From: Rhodopila globiformis
GTDB taxonomy: Bacteria; Pseudomonadota; Alphaproteobacteria; Acetobacterales; Acetobacteraceae
Length of the DNA stretch: 43,095 nt
Assembly: GCF_002937115.1 (NCBI RefSeq)
Contig: NZ_NHRY01000038.1
Span: forward strand, 1 to 43,095
Reading direction: 5' to 3'
Every line of letters starts with the position of its first letter. Position 1 is the stretch's first letter. The notes under the pieces are model-generated. The model was given only the letters and a program-made list of their open reading frames with translations. It was not told where the DNA came from and made no database searches. Position numbers and translations under genes: made by a program. Shown here piece after piece: positions 13,653 to 27,757 of the stretch.

Positions 13653-16136
13653 CTATCCCGATACACATGGCGACACGCCCGGCCATGACGGGGAGACGAG
13701 AGCCGCCGCCGCTGTGCCGGCACCCATGGACATCAGCCGGGCCATCACAGCCTGGCCGAGCGAGATCCCGCCATCGTTCGGCGGCAGCCGCCGCGCGAGC
13801 ACCGGCGTCAGGCCACGCGCCGACAGGGCAGCGGCCAGCCCCTCGGCCAGCACCCGGTTCATCATACAGCCGCCACCGAGGCAAAGCGCGGATAATCCGC
13901 TGGCGGCGGCGCCCTCGGCTGCCATCGCAGCCAGGCCCTCGATCAGCGTGCCGTGGAACAGCTCGGCGCCGGTGCGAGGATCGGGCGGCGCGTCGGCGAA
14001 GGCGGCCAGCAGCGGAGCGAAGGACAGGACGCCGGCATCCAGGGTCCAGCCGCCGGCCAGCGGCCGGGACGTGCGCACCAGCGCCTCCAGTTCCATCGCC
14101 GCCTGACCCTCATACGCCTGCACGCTGCGCAGGCCGAGCAGGGCGGCAACGGCGTCGAACAGGCGGCCCATCGACGATGTCTCGATCGTTTCCGCCCCGG
14201 CGGCAAGCCGCGCCGCCAAAGGCCCGGCAAGGGCGTGATCGGGGAACCGGGCGGCGGCCAGGGCGCCGCGGCCGGTGGCATGCAGCGCGGCCACGCCCAT
14301 CCGCCAAGGCTCGCGCGCGGCGCGGTCCCCGCCGGGCAGGGGCAGCGGGGCAAGCCGTCCGATGCGGCGCCAGGTGGCCCCGTCCACCAGCATCATCTCG
14401 CCGCCCCAGGCGCCGCCGTCGGCGCCGAATCCGTGGCCGTCCAGCGCCAGGCCCAGCACTGGGCCGGCCAGCCGGTGCTCGGCGGCGATGGCGGCGACGT
14501 GCGCGGCATGGTGCTGCACGCGGACGACGGGCAGGCCGAAATCCTCGGCCATGCGGCTGGACAGGTAGTCCGGGTGCAGGTCGCAGGCGACGACCTCGGG
14601 GCGGACGTCGAGGATGCCCAGCAGGTGGCCGATGGTCTCGCGCCAGAAGCGCACGGTTTCCGCCGTGTCGAGGTCGCCGATGTGCTGCGAGACGAACGCT
14701 TCCCGCCCGCGGGTGACGGTGACGGTCGATTTCAGGTGCGCGCCGAGGGCCAGCACCACCGGCCCGTCCTCGGCCAGGCCGATCGGCTCCGGCACGTAGC
14801 CGCGGGCGCGTCGGATCAGGGCGGGTGCGCCGGCGATCACCTGCGCCACACTGTCATCCGCGCGGACCACGATCGGCCGATCGTGGGTGACGATGAGATC
14901 GGCGATGGGGGACAGGCGGTCAAGGGCTTCGTCGTTGTCCCTGACCAGCGGCTCGCCGCCCGGATTGGCGGAGGTGGCGACCAGGGCGAAATCCTCGCCC
15001 AGTTCCGCGAACAGCAGGTGATGCACCGGCGCATACGCCAGCATGACACCGAGGCGCGACAGCCCGGGGGAGATCGACGGCGCCGGCCCATTCGCCCGCA
15101 TCTCCATCAGCACAATCGGCGCCGCCACGCTGGCGGCGAGGGCGATTTCGGCGTCAGTGGGGCAGGCGATGGCGGCCAGCGCCCGGGCGGAGGCGACCAT
15201 GACGGCGAAGGGTTTCGCCTCGCGCCGCTTGCGCTGGCGTAGTGCGGCAACGGCTGATTCGTTGCGGGCATCGCAGAGCAGGTGGAAGCCGCCGATGCCC
15301 TTCAGCGCGACGATCCCGCCGGCGCGGATGGCGGCGGCGATGGCGAGGATCGGCGGAGGATCCGGCGGCAGCCTCTCCGTCATGGCCGGGCGTGTCCCGG
15401 CCTTCCGCGCTTCGACGGCGGGGGGTGGGTGGCCGGGACACGCCCGACCATGACGATGCAGAGGTGCCCGGCCACCTGCACTGCGAGGATGGGGGGTGGA
15501 TGGCCGGGACACGCCCGGCCATGACGATGGGGCGGATCTGGCATGCACCGACGAGGCGACAGCCTCGCACTGCACCCCAAGCCGCGGCCCGCAAACCGGG
15601 CAGGCGATCGGCTCGGCGTGGAACCGCCGGTTCGCCGGGTCCGCGTAGTCGGCGGCACAGGCGGGGCACATCGCGAACCCCGCCATCGACGTGCTCGCCC
15701 GGTCGTACGGCAGGCGGCCGGTGATCGTGTAGCGCGGGCCGCAGTGCGTGCAGTTGACGAAGGGATAGCCGAAGAACCGGCTGTCCGGATTGAACAGATC
15801 GTCCAGGCATGCCGGGCAGGTGGCGGCGTCGGGGACGATGCGGGTGGCGGCGGGGCCGCCGGTGCTGTCGCGGATGGTGAAGCCGGTTTCGCCGGACGGC
15901 GCCAGCGAGTCGATCCCCACCGCCTCGATCGTCGCCAGCGGCGGCGCCTCGGCGGACAGGCGTGCGAGGAACTCGGCGATGCGCGGGCCTTCGACCTCGA
16001 TGGTCACGCCGTCGGCGCCGTTGCGGACGAAGCCGGACAGGTCACAGTCCCGCGCCAGGCGGTGGACGAAGGGACGCATGCCGACACCCTGCACCGCCCC
16101 GCTCAGCCGCACGCGGATGCGTTCGGCAGCACCCAT
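13653..16136 (-). CDS. hypF: HypF, carbamoyltransferase with an in-frame repeat insertion
   Basis: An 827-residue protein (usual length about 750-780) that uses carbamoyl phosphate and ATP to carbamoylate HypE. It has an acylphosphatase domain at about 1-92 (GAVQGVGMRPFVHRLA), paired zinc fingers at 107-182 (four CxxC), a YrdC-like domain from about 262, and a Kae1-like domain (VQHHAAHVAAIAAEH, SSMGRLFDAVAALLG, LGGGCMMNRVLAEG). Residues about 196-255, between zinc fingers and YrdC, are encoded by palindromic repeats (15378-15526), read as GRACPGHPPP-type peptide without a frame break. The last dozen residues also come from repeat DNA. Catalytic motifs are otherwise complete, so the protein may work. 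Confidence 0.93.
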   Translation of the reverse strand: MGAAERIRVRLSGAVQGVGMRPFVHRLARDCDLSGFVRNGADGVTIEVEGPRIAEFLARLSAEAPPLATIEAVGIDSLAPSGETGFTIRDSTGGPAATRIVPDAATCPACLDDLFNPDSRFFGYPFVNCTHCGPRYTITGRLPYDRASTSMAGFAMCPACAADYADPANRRFHAEPIACPVCGPRLGVQCEAVASSVHARSAPSSWPGVSRPSTPHPRSAGGRAPLHRHGRACPGHPPPAVEARKAGTRPAMTERLPPDPPPILAIAAAIRAGGIVALKGIGGFHLLCDARNESAVAALRQRKRREAKPFAVMVASARALAAIACPTDAEIALAASVAAPIVLMEMRANGPAPSISPGLSRLGVMLAYAPVHHLLFAELGEDFALVATSANPGGEPLVRDNDEALDRLSPIADLIVTHDRPIVVRADDSVAQVIAGAPALIRRARGYVPEPIGLAEDGPVVLALGAHLKSTVTVTRGREAFVSQHIGDLDTAETVRFWRETIGHLLGILDVRPEVVACDLHPDYLSSRMAEDFGLPVVRVQHHAAHVAAIAAEHRLAGPVLGLALDGHGFGADGGAWGGEMMLVDGATWRRIGRLAPLPLPGGDRAAREPWRMGVAALHATGRGALAAARFPDHALAGPLAARLAAGAETIETSSMGRLFDAVAALLGLRSVQAYEGQAAMELEALVRTSRPLAGGWTLDAGVLSFAPLLAAFADAPPDPRTGAELFHGTLIEGLAAMAAEGAAASGLSALCLGGGCMMNRVLAEGLAAALSARGLTPVLARRLPPNDGGISLGQAVMARLMSMGAGTAAAALVSPSWPGVSPCVSG
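15378..15455. repeat. 78-bp palindrome inside hypF
   Basis: The left arm CGTCATGGCCGGGCGTGTCC and its complement near 15432-15455 form a long hairpin. It lies entirely inside the hypF reading frame, in the linker between zinc fingers and YrdC domain, and is translated. Its length of 78 bp is a multiple of three. Confidence 0.9.
15467..15526. repeat. Second, left-truncated copy of the palindrome inside hypF
   Basis: The right arm GATGGCCGGGACACGCCCGG (starting near 15499) is complete. The left arm is eroded to CCCGGCCACC. It follows the first copy by 11 bp and is also translated as part of HypF. Confidence 0.75.
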
Positions 16137-16139
16137 GCG

Positions 16140-17096
16140 TCAGGCCGTCACGCGCCGCGCCGCGTGCGCCTCGATCCAGGCCAGGAAGGCGGCCATGCCC
16201 TCGCCGGTCTTCGCCGAGACGGTCAGGATCTGCAGACGCGGGTTGACCCGCAGCGCCGCCGCCATGCAGGCGCCGACGTCGAAATCCAGGTGCGGCAGCA
16301 GGTCGGCCTTGTTCAGCAGCATCAGGTCCGCGGCGGCGAACATATCGGGGTATTTCGCCGGCTTGTCCTCGCCCTCGGTCACCGACAGTACCACCACCTT
16401 GTGCGCCTCGCCCAGGTCGAAGGCCGCGGGGCAGACCAGGTTGCCGACGTTCTCGATGAACAGCACGCCGCCGGGCTCCAGCGGCAGGTCGTCCAGCGCA
16501 TGCCCCACCATGTGGGCGTCAAGGTGGCAGCCCTTGCCGGTATTCACCTGCACCGCCTTGACCCCGGTGGCGCGGATCCGCTCGGCGTCGTTGGAGGTCT
16601 GCTGGTCGCCCTCGATCACTGCGATGGGCAGGCGCGGCTTCAGTGCCTCGATGGTGCGGCACAACAGCATCGTCTTACCGCTGCCGGGGCTGGAGACCAG
16701 GTTCAGCGCGAAGGTGCCGCTGCGGGCGAGGCGCTCCCGGTTGTCCTGCGCATAGGCGTTGTTCTTCGACAGGATGTCGCGCTCGATGCGGACGATGCGT
16801 TCCTGGCTCAGGCCGGGGACGTGAACGCCGGCGAGGCCGGCGCCGGCATCGACCAGGCCGTCGCTCTGCCGCGGATGGTCGTGGTGGTGATCCGCGTGAT
16901 CATGGTCGTGGTGATGATGGTCATGGGCGTGATCGTGCTCATGATGATGCTCATGGCCATGGACGTGATCGTGGTCATGGTGGTGGTCGTGGCCATGATC
17001 GTGCTCATGATCATGGCCGTGCGAATGGTCATGATGATGGCCGTGTGGCGCCTGGCCCTCGATCGTTTCCGTGCCGCAGCCGCAGACGGTGCACAT
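16140..17096 (-). CDS. hypB: HypB, nickel-storing GTPase for hydrogenase maturation
   Basis: 318 residues. It inserts nickel into the hydrogenase large subunit with HypA. The N-terminal metal motif CTVCGCG is followed by an exceptionally long His/Asp tract (about residues 17-77, dozens of His), the nickel-storage region. The GTPase domain has P-loop [51 protein letters not shown] and TVSAKTGEG. The ATG at 17096 with GGAGG seven bases upstream is preferred over the GTG one codon earlier; both overlap the hypA stop. The GTPase portion is normal in length and motifs. Confidence 0.97.
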
Positions 17097-17437
17097 CACT
17101 CAACCTCCAGTTCGCGGACCCTCAGTTCGTCGCCCGCCGTCATCTGTACGTGGTGCTGGCCGCAGTCCGGGCAGGCGCCGAAGCGTTCCTGCAGCGGCAC
17201 CGTCTTGCCGCAGTCCAGGCACCAGCCGGCGCCGGCGATGCGGTCGATCACCAGCTTCGCGCCCTCCGCGATCGTACCACGACTGACGGCGTCGAAACAG
17301 AACAACATCGCCTCCGGCGCGACATGGCCCAGCACGCCGATTTCCAGCACGATGGCGGTCACCCGCGCGAAGCCCTGCTTGCGCGCCTCGTCCTCGACCA
17401 CGCCGAGGACGCCCTCGCACAGCGCCATTTCATGCAT
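17096..17437 (-). CDS. hypA: HypA, hydrogenase nickel metallochaperone
   Basis: 113 residues. It starts [18 protein letters not shown]; the conserved N-terminal His2 binds nickel. The zinc site is two CxxC pairs ([11 protein letters not shown] and [11 protein letters not shown]). It ends [10 protein letters not shown]. It overlaps the upstream hup-like gene by eight bases and the hypB start by one to four bases, so the operon is translationally coupled. Confidence 0.97.
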
Positions 17438-17966
17438 CGGCGGCGCTTTCGACCAAGACTCGCAGGGCGACGCAGGGATCGAAGGCGGCGGCGCGGTCGG
17501 TGATCGCGGCGACGGCGTCCGGGCCGGGGCGGAGCCCTATGGGATGCACATACCTCGAGAACAACCTGGGAACGACCGTAAAATCAGAGGCTTGCATGGC
17601 GGCCGGGCACGTTCCCTCGTCGTCATGGCCCGGCTTGTCCAGGACACCTGTCGCGGCACACGTGCTTGAACAGGTGGCCCGGACAAGCCGGGCCATGACG
17701 GGATGCGCCACGGCCACGATGGATCGTTTCAAAGTTCTGCGCATCCCGTAGAGGCGGAACCCGGCCAGCGCATGCGCCAGCGGGCCGTCGGGAAGGAATT
17801 TCCATTCCGTCGGCTCCAGCACGCAGGCGTCGGCCAAGCGTCGGTCATCGTTGAACACCAGGCGGTAATACAACCGCCCGCGCGCCGATTCCACTGCGGC
17901 GTATCCCCTATTCGGCCCGATACGATCCTCGGTTATCCAGTCGTCGCTCGTGCCCTGGCCGGACAA
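17430..17966 (-). pseudogene. HupK/HoxV-like hydrogenase large-subunit paralogue, C-terminal remnant with insertion
   Basis: The readable protein has AAVESARGRLYYRLVFND, VLEPTEWKFLPDGPLAHAL and, after an inserted block, [20 protein letters not shown]. These are the conserved C-terminal motifs of NiFe-hydrogenase large-subunit-like scaffold proteins (HupK/HoxV/HyaF group), where DPCxxC is reduced to DPCV. The N-terminal bulk expected for the family is missing; upstream DNA is repeat-filled. A 213-bp mobile palindrome (17538-17750) interrupts it after ALAGFR, but the frame stays open. I therefore call it a truncated, probably decayed gene that is still read in frame into hypA. A short functional form cannot be excluded. 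Confidence 0.72.
17538..17750. mobile_element. 213-bp palindromic mobile element inside the hup-like gene
   Basis: The ends are TATGGGATGCACATACCTCG and, inverted, TACGGGATGCGCAGAACTTT. The core is the 80-bp hairpin at 17621-17700. Flanks of 12 bp (17526-17537 and 17751-17762) agree at 10 of 12 positions, which looks like an aged target duplication. It is a reversed and diverged copy of the element at 17998-18208. Element plus 12-bp duplication is 225 bp, a multiple of three, explaining the preserved frame. Confidence 0.85.
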
Positions 17967-17976
17967 TCGTTCTCTC

Positions 17977-18276
17977 CGTCATGGCCGGGCGTGTCCCTAC
18001 GGGATGCACACATCTCGGAAACGGTCCGCCGCGGCGTTTCCCTTTCGTCATGGCCCGGCTTGTCCGGGCCACCTATTCCAGCACTTGTGCCGCGACAGGT
18101 GGCCCGGACAAGCCGGGCCATGACGATGTCGGAACGCTCTTGGCGCCCAGGCAAGCACTTGATTTTACGGTCATTTCCCACTCGTTTCCGAGATGTGTGC
18201 ATCCCGTAGGGCGTGTCCCGGCCATCTGCGCTTCGACGGCGCGGGGTGGATGGCCGGGACAGGCCCGGCCATGACG
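17977..18276. repeat. 78-bp palindrome split by a mobile element
   Basis: The pieces 17977-17997 and 18209-18276, joined after removing one copy of the 11-bp duplication, give exactly a 78-bp palindrome of the CGTCATGGCCGGG type with both arms. From 18277 to 18518 I see only faint coding remnants and the spacer before the esterase gene. Confidence 0.9.
17998..18208. mobile_element. 211-bp element with terminal inverted repeats and 11-bp target duplication
   Basis: The left end TACGGGATGCACACATCTCG is repeated inverted at the right end (18183-18208), with about 26-bp terminal repeats. The core is an 80-bp hairpin (18046-18125) with 29-bp arms. GGGCGTGTCCC occurs directly on both sides (17987-17997 and 18209-18219). 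It is too short to encode a transposase, so it is non-autonomous. Copies at 17538-17750 and 21576-21786 have nearly the same length. Confidence 0.92.
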
Positions 18277-18518: not shown

Positions 18519-20024
18519 ATGCCCCAGAGTTCGGCGCTTCCCACCTACAGCGCCATCTATGCCTTCGGCGACAGCCTGTCCGACGCGGGCAATCTTTCGA
18601 ACCTCACAACCCTCGCCGGCAGCACCGAGCCGGTGTCGCCGCCGTACTTCACGCAGCACTATGGCCTGATCAGCGGCAACGTGTTCAGCAACGGCCCGAC
18701 ATGGGTGCAGGATCTGTCGACAGCCCTTGGCCTCGGGACGCTGGCGCCGACCCTGGCCGGCGGCACCGATTTCGCCTATGGCGGCGCCGAAACCGGCCCG
18801 ACTGCGCTGAACGCCGGCGACCTGCAGCTCCAGGCGATTTCGCTACCGGCACAGCTCGCGGAATTCAAGGCGCGTGTGCCGGCCCCGTCGGCGAATGCGC
18901 TGTACACGTTGTCCGTCGGCTCGAATGACCTGCTCGGCATCCTGGCCGCCCCTGGGCTGACCGCAACGCAGCAGACCAACGACGTCAATGCCGCCGTCGG
19001 CAACGAGGTTAGCTTCGTCAGCCAGCTCATCAAGGACGGGGCGAAGAACCTGCTGGTGATGAACGTGCCCGACCTCGGCAAGACGCCGGAGGTCACGCAG
19101 GGGCTGGCCAACGGCAGCAACATGCCGTCCGCCCAGCTGATCAATGAGGCGTCGCAGCTTTCCAGCCTGTACGACACGACCCTGGCGTCCGACCTCGCCA
19201 GCCTGGCCGCCACCAGCGGCACGAAGATCGGGATCGTGGACAGCTACGCGCTGGTCGACAACGCGGTGGCCGATCCCGCCGCCTATGGCCTGACCAACGT
19301 CACCACGCCGGTCTGGAGCGGCAACTACACCAGCGCCAGCAGCGGCACCCTGGCCACCACCGATCTCGCGACACAGGACCAGTACCTGTTCTGGGACCAC
19401 CTGCATCCGACTGAAACCGGCCACCTGGCGCTCGCCCAGCAAGCCGAGCAGGTATTGAGCGGGACTCCGCCACTGACGGTCGCGAACGCCACGACGGGCG
19501 CCAGCGTCCCGGCCGCGGGGGAACCCTACACCTCGCCGGTCAGCGGGCCGGAGCAGGCATATACAGCGGTAACGGCCGATCGGCTGAACATCACCGCCAG
19601 TACCCCGGACTGGTTCCTCCACGGCGGCGCCGGCGGCGGCAGCATGACCGTCGCCAGCGGCACCAACGTGCTGCAGGCCGACGGCGGGTCATGGATCTTC
19701 ACCGGCGGCAGCGGCGTGGATTCGTTCGGCGTGGACATCCGCGGCGACACCGCCGCGACCGCGACCGCGATCGTCAACTTCCATGCCGGCGACTCGGCCA
19801 CCATCCTGGGCGTCACGCCGGCCGATTTCGACCTGTGCTGGCATGACGGCCATGGACCGGGCGGCCATACCGGGCTGACGCTGTACGCCACCGGCCCCGA
19901 TGGGCCGACGGCGTCGCTGACCCTGGCCGGATTGACCAGCGGGGCCCTGAGCAACGGCCAGCTGACCGTCACCTCCGGCACAATGGACGGCACGCCCTGC
20001 TACACCATTCACGCCAACGCCTGA
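18519..20024 (+). CDS. Secreted SGNH/GDSL lipase-esterase with RTX-like tail
   Basis: 501 residues. The catalytic domain (about 10-315) has block I FGDSLSDAGN with the nucleophile Ser, a Gly block GGTDFAYGGAETG, block III VGSNDLL, and block V WDHLHPTETGH with the Asp-His pair. It also has NVPDLGKTPEV. The C-terminal 150 residues are Gly/Asp/Thr-rich beta sequence with FTGGSGVDSFGVDIRGD, like the RTX-type tails of type-I-secreted proteins. No N-terminal signal peptide is present, consistent with that route; no T1SS genes are nearby. It is likely an extracellular ester hydrolase; substrate unknown. Confidence 0.88.
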   Translation: MPQSSALPTYSAIYAFGDSLSDAGNLSNLTTLAGSTEPVSPPYFTQHYGLISGNVFSNGPTWVQDLSTALGLGTLAPTLAGGTDFAYGGAETGPTALNAGDLQLQAISLPAQLAEFKARVPAPSANALYTLSVGSNDLLGILAAPGLTATQQTNDVNAAVGNEVSFVSQLIKDGAKNLLVMNVPDLGKTPEVTQGLANGSNMPSAQLINEASQLSSLYDTTLASDLASLAATSGTKIGIVDSYALVDNAVADPAAYGLTNVTTPVWSGNYTSASSGTLATTDLATQDQYLFWDHLHPTETGHLALAQQAEQVLSGTPPLTVANATTGASVPAAGEPYTSPVSGPEQAYTAVTADRLNITASTPDWFLHGGAGGGSMTVASGTNVLQADGGSWIFTGGSGVDSFGVDIRGDTAATATAIVNFHAGDSATILGVTPADFDLCWHDGHGPGGHTGLTLYATGPDGPTASLTLAGLTSGALSNGQLTVTSGTMDGTPCYTIHANA

Positions 20025-21554: not shown

Positions 21555-21575
21555 CGTCATGGCCCGGACGAGCCC

Positions 21576-21786
21576 TACCGCATGCACACATCTCGGAAAC
21601 GGTCCGCCGTGGCGTTCCCCCATCGTCATGGCCCGGCTTGTCCGGGCCACCTGTCGCGGCACACGTGCTGGAATAGGTGGCCCGGACAAGCCGGGCCATG
21701 ACGATGGGGGAACGCTCTCGGAGCCCAGGCAAGCACTTGATTTTACGGTCATTTCCGACTCGTTTCAGAGATCTGTGCATCCCGTA
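21576..21786. mobile_element. 211-bp palindromic mobile element, third copy
   Basis: It starts TACCGCATGCACACATCTCG and ends ATCTGTGCATCCCGTA, with the 80-bp hairpin at 21624-21703. It splits a short 31-bp palindrome (21555-21575 and 21787-21807). The 11-bp flanks agree at 8 of 11 positions. Together with the neighbouring scraps it fills most of the 659-bp spacer 21184-21842, in which I find no intact gene. Confidence 0.85.
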
Positions 21787-21842
21787 GGGATGAGCCGGGC
21801 CATGACGATGGGTGGCACGACCGCGGCGGCTGAGGCCGGGCC

Positions 21843-25536: not shown

Positions 25537-25675
25537 CATGCGTATCAGGATAGGACGACGGCCGGAGAAGGATTTGGCGCCGCGGCCGTTCTCTCACCGT
25601 CATGGCCGGGCGTGTCCCGGCCATCCACCCCCCACCGTCGCAGCGCGGATGGCCGGAACACGCCCGGCCATGACG
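25537..25675. repeat. 60-bp repeat unit followed by a full 78-bp palindrome
   Basis: 25537-25597 matches the unit at 24474-24535. 25598-25675 is a complete 78-bp palindrome. They fill most of the spacer after the methyltransferase gene. Confidence 0.88.
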
Positions 25676-27679: not shown

Positions 27680-27757
27680 CGTCATGGTCGGGCGTGTCCC
27701 GGCCATCTGCGCTTCGACGGCGGGGGGTGGATGGCCGGGACACGCCCGGCCATGACG
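27680..27757. repeat. Complete 78-bp palindrome
   Basis: Both arms are present (left starting CGTCATGGTCGGGCGTGTCC). It lies in the 477-bp divergent spacer 27480-27956 between the RMD1-like gene and the PhoU-like gene. The 27850-27956 part is the leader of the latter and contains AAGGAGG before its ATG. Confidence 0.92.

Follow-up and report, generated by a model that had tools for sequence, protein, structure and literature searches.

The 213-bp element located at positions 17997-18209 of the window (the whole 43,095-nt stretch of Rhodopila globiformis DNA analysed here) is very probably a MITE of the IS50/Tn5 group (IS4 family) that would be moved in trans by a DDE transposase into the hairpin loops of CGTC-type REPs, with duplication of 9 bp of the target. 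Bacterial MITEs are short, non-coding elements with inverted ends and a target duplication, and are mobilised in trans by the transposase of an insertion sequence. The window element displays the corresponding structure, being short (213 bp), non-coding, bounded by inverted 27-bp ends, flanked by a target duplication and present in many copies. Its components, the other copies in the window and the REP dimers concerned are the following:

17997-18209, + strand: MITE copy 1, 213 bp, delimited from its ends, the duplication and the IS50 register
17997-18023, + strand: left terminal inverted repeat, 27 bp
18183-18209, - strand: right terminal inverted repeat, 27 bp
17988-17996, no strand: 9-bp target duplication GGCGTGTCC, left copy, made up of the 5-nt loop and 2 stem bases per side
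18210-18218, no strand: 9-bp target duplication GGCGTGTCC, right copy
18046-18125, no strand: type-2 CGTC-REP dimer carried in the MITE, with stems ATGGCCCGG/CCGGGCCAC and loop CTTGT, recognised from its units and fold
18046-18074 (+ strand) and 18097-18125 (- strand): the two units of the carried type-2 dimer
21575-21787, + strand: MITE copy 2, 213 bp, in a type-2 REP unit, with duplication GGACGAGCC / GGATGAGCC (8/9)
17537-17751, - strand: MITE copy 3, 215 bp, diverged, with flanks GGCGGAGCC / GGCGGAACC (one-base offset)
17977-17996, no strand: host CGTC-REP dimer, left part, comprising the CGTC tag, the 9-bp stem ATGGCCGGG, the loop CGTGT and the first 2 bases of the returning stem
18219-18276, no strand: remainder of the host REP dimer, comprising the end of the first stem, the spacer and the second unit
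25598-25675, no strand: unoccupied type-1 CGTC-REP dimer, used as empty-site reference
27680-27757, no strand: unoccupied type-1 CGTC-REP dimer, used as empty-site reference, 75/78 identical to the rebuilt host

The preliminary description of this region had proposed a 211-bp mobile element at 17998-18208 with terminal inverted repeats of about 26 bp and an internal hairpin of 80 bp. Both structures were recovered, the ends matching at the first 26/26 positions and over 27 in a row (17997-18209) and the hairpin occurring at 18046-18125; the element is a genuine mobile one, but its best bounds are 17997-18209, which gives 213 bp. The same length had also been attributed to the other copies in the window, which applies to 21575-21787 (213 bp) but not to all of them because the diverged copy at 17537-17751 has 215 bp. 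When folded as single-stranded DNA, the 300-nt stretch that contains the element and its host reaches -130.3 kcal/mol, compared with a mean of -62.6 (sd 3.7) for 200 shuffles (z -18.4), and Rfam gave no match within the window. The ORFs on either side of the MITE at 17997-18209 match cobW/HypB (16140-17099) and a GDSL lipase (18519-20024), and the MITE cluster is adjoined by a HypF-like hydrogenase-maturation gene (13653-16136) together with the cobW/HypB-like gene. Among the relatives listed for a gene in the vicinity, the nearest come from Rhodopila assemblies (84 and 75% identity). Another repeat, resembling CAGACCGCAGGTCGRTTGRGAC, was observed upstream of type-2 REP units at ca. 21515 in the window as well as at loci L013 and L132.

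Joining the flanks through one copy of the duplication rebuilds the expected 78-bp palindrome, which is identical at 75/78 positions to that at 27680-27757 and at 65/78 to that at 25598-25675, all three being palindromic at 64/78 positions. The proposed order of events, with the host palindrome first and the element second, was retained. The two unoccupied palindromes carry a CGTC tag, a 9-bp stem beginning with AT and a 5-nt loop, and occur as dimers. CGTC REPs have been described as having a CGTC tag, an 8-9-bp stem beginning with AT, a 4-5-nt loop and a dimeric organisation (PMC3733652); judged by their sequence, the 78-bp palindromes match this already described class, the hosts resembling the CGTC-3/4 types of that report in tag, 9-bp stem starting with AT, 5-nt loop and dimers. 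Allowing up to 2 mismatches, the genome contains 547 type-1 units (GGCCGGG stem) and 510 type-2 units (GGCCCGG stem), against 0 for the reversed control.

In the genome of R. globiformis (7,248,147 bases in 278 contigs), a 28-position end motif with at most 2 mismatches was found at 162+167 = 329 sites (reversed control, 0+0) and a 16-base end motif, also with at most 2 mismatches, at 165+163 sites (reversed control, 3+3). Since each copy has two ends, the 329 sites would correspond to perhaps 165 MITE copies of several lengths. A first pass delimited 85 end pairs, of which 60 share the length of the window copy and 4 represent a 162-bp form with one palindrome instead of the dimer. Three of the 85 (L013 at 1221, L001 at 1221 and L132) were false end pairings and were dropped, leaving 82 copies. 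Their loci were chosen among the best matches and the first 100 end sites listed, which biases the set towards well-preserved copies. Tabulation of these copies by their terminal motif revealed a perfect 9-bp duplication in 50/82.

The duplication had initially been taken as 11 bp, and positions 17987-17997 and 18209-18219 do both correspond to GGGCGTGTCCC, but from the sequences it is best read as the 9-bp GGCGTGTCC. Perfect duplicates of 5, 7, 9 and 11 bp occur in 55, 51, 50 and 41 of the 82 copies, respectively. The length of 9 bp is preferred because 11 bp fails in type-2 REP hosts (see for instance L146), because unusual target bases outside the central five occur on both sides in L031 (GGCCAGGGC) and L184 (GCACACGCC), because exactly nine bases are perfectly duplicated around two congener copies inserted outside REPs (GGTATGCGC and CTATCGCCG), and because the element end fits the known IS50 consensus only when it starts with C, that is in the 9-bp register. 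A duplication restricted to the bare 5-bp loop, which would place CCC and GGG at the ends of the element, was rejected since the outer bases vary with the target and are also duplicated (L031, L184 and the congener locus L268); it is further contradicted by CTATCGCCG, a clean 9 in L269, and by the fit to IS50 ends in the 9-bp register only. In five of the 82 copies the duplicates agree over 5 bp and differ by one base over 9, which is read as later mutation.

A perfect 9-bp duplication is lacking in 32/82 copies, 7 of which (L129, L013, L161, L193, L007, L153 and L171) have flanks from opposite arms of the REP dimer, a configuration expected when two inserted copies recombine or undergo a deletion between them. 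Recombination has also been proposed for the hybrid duplications of ISRm22 (PMC1525189). At three loci (L011, L167 and L184) both arms of one REP are occupied, and these doubly occupied REPs are likely recombination intermediates.

The element had first been regarded as belonging to no named family, yet its ends and its full-length relatives fit the IS50/Tn5 group of the IS4 family. This group is defined by the end consensus CW------Y---CA-A--W- (PMC2266710, Table 1), by direct repeats of 8-9 bp, by elements of 1350-1550 bp and by the transposase motifs D(60-110)D(100-150)E and Y(2)R(3)E(6)K (PMC2266710). In the 213-bp register, the consensus is fitted by at least one end in 77/82 copies and by both ends in 13, while the registers of 211, 215 and 217 bp fit in 0/82; shuffling the MITE end produced a fit in 65/100000 cases. 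Direct repeats of the size given for the group flank 50/82 MITE copies, the two congener copies in non-REP targets and both complete elements of the congener G010 (see below).

When 29 genomes of the genus were searched with the end motif, matches were obtained in 7, including that of R. globiformis. The congener G035, with 43 end sites of a slightly different motif, many of them at contig ends or close together, is another expanded lineage of the same element family and contains two copies in non-REP targets. In the congener G033, a transposase gene whose tail is directly followed by such an end was observed next to REP loops, and a search with this tail detected relatives in 6/8 genomes searched. 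The full-length, transposase-encoding relatives that had been sought were found in G010, as two complete elements of 1412 bp, within the 1350-1550 bp of the IS50 group, that are inserted in REP loops with perfect 9-bp duplications (GGACAAGCC and GGCTTGTCC). The two ends of each match one another at 22 and 20 of 26 positions, respectively, and their transposases (439-441 aa) score 212-224 bits on NCBIfam IS4_3 (cut-off 160). For the one G010 protein that was searched against the PDB, the six matches all correspond to the Tn5 transposase or inhibitor (best E 5e-24), and the G010 protein shares 52% identity with a 450-aa protein of G035 over 416 aligned positions. Among the congener relatives (the window element itself being non-coding), the YREK motif is complete in 4/4 proteins and the D motifs in the 3/3 that are untruncated.

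The MITE ends match those of the full-length relatives at 19 to 21 of 26 positions, and the 19/26 shared with the G010 ends was reached by 0/100000 shuffles; the G033 and G035 ends are one position off the IS50 consensus. A full-length copy of G035 (C595, L309) has flanks that do not match, with its right end at a contig end. A Sinorhizobium relative (L364, 48% identity) has the same end type, is flanked by CCCTTCAGGG on both sides and is not located in a CGTC REP. This relative shows that insertion in REP loops does not hold throughout the transposase family, within which the target has shifted.

Among published elements, ISRm22 offers a rival for the parent, as this REP-targeting IS4 element of Sinorhizobium meliloti inserts, in all its copies, at the axis of REP palindromes, in part with hybrid duplications (PMC1525189), and has been assigned to subgroup IS4Sa with duplications of 8-10 bp (PMC2266710). 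A parent nearer to ISRm22 than to IS50 is nonetheless improbable, since, with ISRm22 judged by its description, the MITE ends start with 5'-CT, as in IS10, IS50 and ISPepr1, and not with 5'-CA, and they agree with IS50 at the remaining conserved positions of the consensus. ISRm22 further differs in being a full-length IS of IS4Sa with repeats reported as six bp, and the passages describing it mention neither a miniature form nor REP cargo (PMC1525189). The IS50/Tn5 group shares with the MITE family the 5'-CT consensus ends, the 9-bp duplication, DDE/YREK relatives of 1412 bp and Tn5 as the best solved relative; unlike its typical members, the window element is miniature, non-coding and inserted in a REP loop. 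Tn5 itself favours palindromic sites and duplications that have GC pairs at their ends, without being specific for REPs (PMC1525189).

The nine duplicated bases comprise the 5-nt hairpin loop and two stem bases per side. The hosts of the 82 copies are type-1 REPs in 56 cases, type-2 REPs in 18 and other or mixed sites in 8, and the rebuilt sites of the 50 perfect copies have a stem of at least 8 bp round the 5-nt centre in 39 cases and of less than 7 bp in 11. Some of the sites that do not resemble typical REPs nevertheless form short palindromes, for example CCCGG-GCGGC-CCGGG in L182, but the L031 site is not palindromic. Twelve different sequences occur among the perfect duplications. Flanks were compared at 100-400 bp from the ends, as nearer flanks include the other half of the REP dimer and are misleading, and a match of at least 150 bp was found in 12/13203 pairs, among them several that concern neighbouring copies of other repeats. 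Transposition, rather than duplication of a hairpin, is thus upheld by the perfect 9-bp duplication in 50/82 copies and by the scarcity of shared flanks, and it is also because of this scarcity that segmental duplication is not a general explanation. The 300-bp stretch does have many long matches in the genome, the full-length ones among the matches listed being 86 to 97% identical, as would be expected if a 300-bp composite had spread as a unit, or if the surrounding segments had been duplicated, in place of separate 213-bp insertions; such a scenario is very unlikely in view of the insertions in both REP types, the 12 duplication sequences and the 12/13203 flank pairs.

In the R. globiformis assembly, no intact transposase of the parental type was found, the search returning 7 partial matches with a best stretch of 89 aa and stop codons in two places. 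At C41, a pair of ends surrounds a broken transposase copy and has flanks from opposite arms. An intact IS4 transposase of another subfamily (L246, 412 aa, NCBIfam IS4_2) is a candidate for an alternative mobiliser of the MITE, and a limited scan round it found no ends matching those of the MITE. Scanning 16 longer PF01609 loci for paired ends gave one weak chance pair only. Other candidates were set aside, namely L239, which has a YREK-like string and no NCBIfam hit in the frame tested, and 31 short PF01609 fragments (27 of 57 aa and 4 of 85 aa) that belong to other multi-copy insertion sequences; the fragments inspected lie at contig ends, 8 of their loci have no MITE-type ends, and these insertion sequences probably break the assembly.

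No match to Y1_Tnp (PF01797) was detected in the R. globiformis genome, the control search being positive in 5/14 named genomes. Precise inverted ends and 9-bp duplications are not known to result from the mechanism of Y1 transposases. Movement of palindromes and element in the REPIN/RAYT manner, by a hairpin-recognising Y1 (IS200/IS605-like) tyrosine transposase without inverted ends or duplications, is scarcely credible here, for although host and cargo are both REP-like hairpin dimers and GTAG-class REPs are tied to RAYTs (PMC3733652), both precise inverted ends and 9-bp duplications are observed, no Y1-type RAYT was detected with PF01797, and CGTC repeats were reported in 2013 to have neither an association with transposase genes nor a dedicated transposase (PMC3733652).

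A DDE transposase supplied in trans would instead bind the ends of ca. 26 bp (CTACGGGATGCACACATCTCGGAAAC), excise the element and paste it into the hairpin loop of a CGTC-type REP, the insertion copying 9 bp that correspond to the 5-nt loop and two GC-rich stem bases per side. The preference for loops may reflect either the resemblance of GG-N5-CC to the symmetric Tn5 target or the extrusion of the hairpin. The copies with their ends and duplications, the empty sites, the targeting of REP loops and the full-length congener relatives of the same habit are read directly from the genomes; cut-and-paste chemistry would follow from the relation to Tn5. Because no intact transposase of the parental type was found, the mobiliser in R. 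globiformis is one that we infer, and the source transposase acting in trans would since have decayed in this genome or lie outside the assembly.

The cargo, an 80-bp internal hairpin that is itself a CGTC-REP dimer of type 2, was surveyed in the first 100 of the 510 listed type-2 units, 88 of which were tested in extracted DNA and 12 placed by coordinates. Among the 88, 37 are located between both MITE ends within 190 bp, 16 beside one end and 35 near none; of the 12, 10 fall inside known copies, and the other 2 lie next to one end at the start of a contig (L024). For the 100 units, this amounts to 47 between both ends, 18 beside one and 35 with none. In the congeners, the internal hairpin is frequent and, among the matches listed, only that part of the element is covered.

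Each insertion in a CGTC-REP loop would bring a new CGTC-REP dimer, both loops of which are of the target class; the MITE would carry its own landing site, element and CGTC REPs would amplify each other, and a Tn5-type DDE transposase would provide a dispersal route for CGTC REPs. This idea is put forward tentatively and is rather doubtful: the 47/100 sampled type-2 units between both ends and the 18 beside one speak for it, but type-2 units abound without these ends in the congeners and at 35/100 sampled places. No convincing case of a MITE inside the REP dimer of another MITE was found among the 82 copies, the 8/82 loose matches being discounted, as any REP has many bases in common with the probe.

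Insertion of IS elements in REPs, including that of the IS4-family ISRm22, has already been published (PMC1525189), and CGTC REPs are widespread in Alphaproteobacteria with a route of spread that was left open in 2013 (PMC3733652). Searches of the open-licence literature found no report of an IS4/IS50 MITE in CGTC-REP loops, of a miniature element with REP cargo, or of a link between such a MITE and the spread of CGTC REPs. The family differs from other bacterial MITEs in its end type, its REP-loop specificity and its REP cargo, and the CGTC REPs of this genome differ from those described in PMC3733652 in that a DDE-type MITE both uses them as landing sites and carries them. A REP dimer in the middle of a longer inverted repeat likewise occurs in GTAG-15 of A. 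variabilis and CGTC-1 of H. neapolitanus, where the accounts of these repeats do not identify the longer palindromes as MITEs with target duplications (PMC3733652). The REP-carrying MITE suggests one possible way for orphan hairpins to spread. With a large share of one REP type riding in a transposon of known chemistry that aims at REP loops, this spread becomes testable in a system of one transposase, one mini-element and plasmids that either carry or lack a REP. The family also provides a natural Tn5 relative with a strong preference for intergenic hairpin loops, and a case in which insertion can be dated relative to the host repeat.

Finally, several larger or related elements were observed in the R. 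globiformis genome. Copies with a longer interior correspond in L016 and L034 to duplicated hairpin pieces with N in the assembly, and the copy in L187 (407 bp) has its hairpin loop interrupted by a further insert. Elements of 465-474 bp (L011 1040-1513, L136 948-1416, L167 2038-2502 and L184 2023-2490, in the TAC..GTA register) have the same end type and another interior with inverted repeats of the GGAGTTCC/GGAACTCC type. Another miniature element, which is AT-rich and has related ends (CTACGGGATGCACAGATCTC), is located in REP loops at L156 607-767 and L175 597-910, the latter having an extra inverted-repeat segment of ca. 150 bp bounded by AATAGGGGCAAAACCCC.
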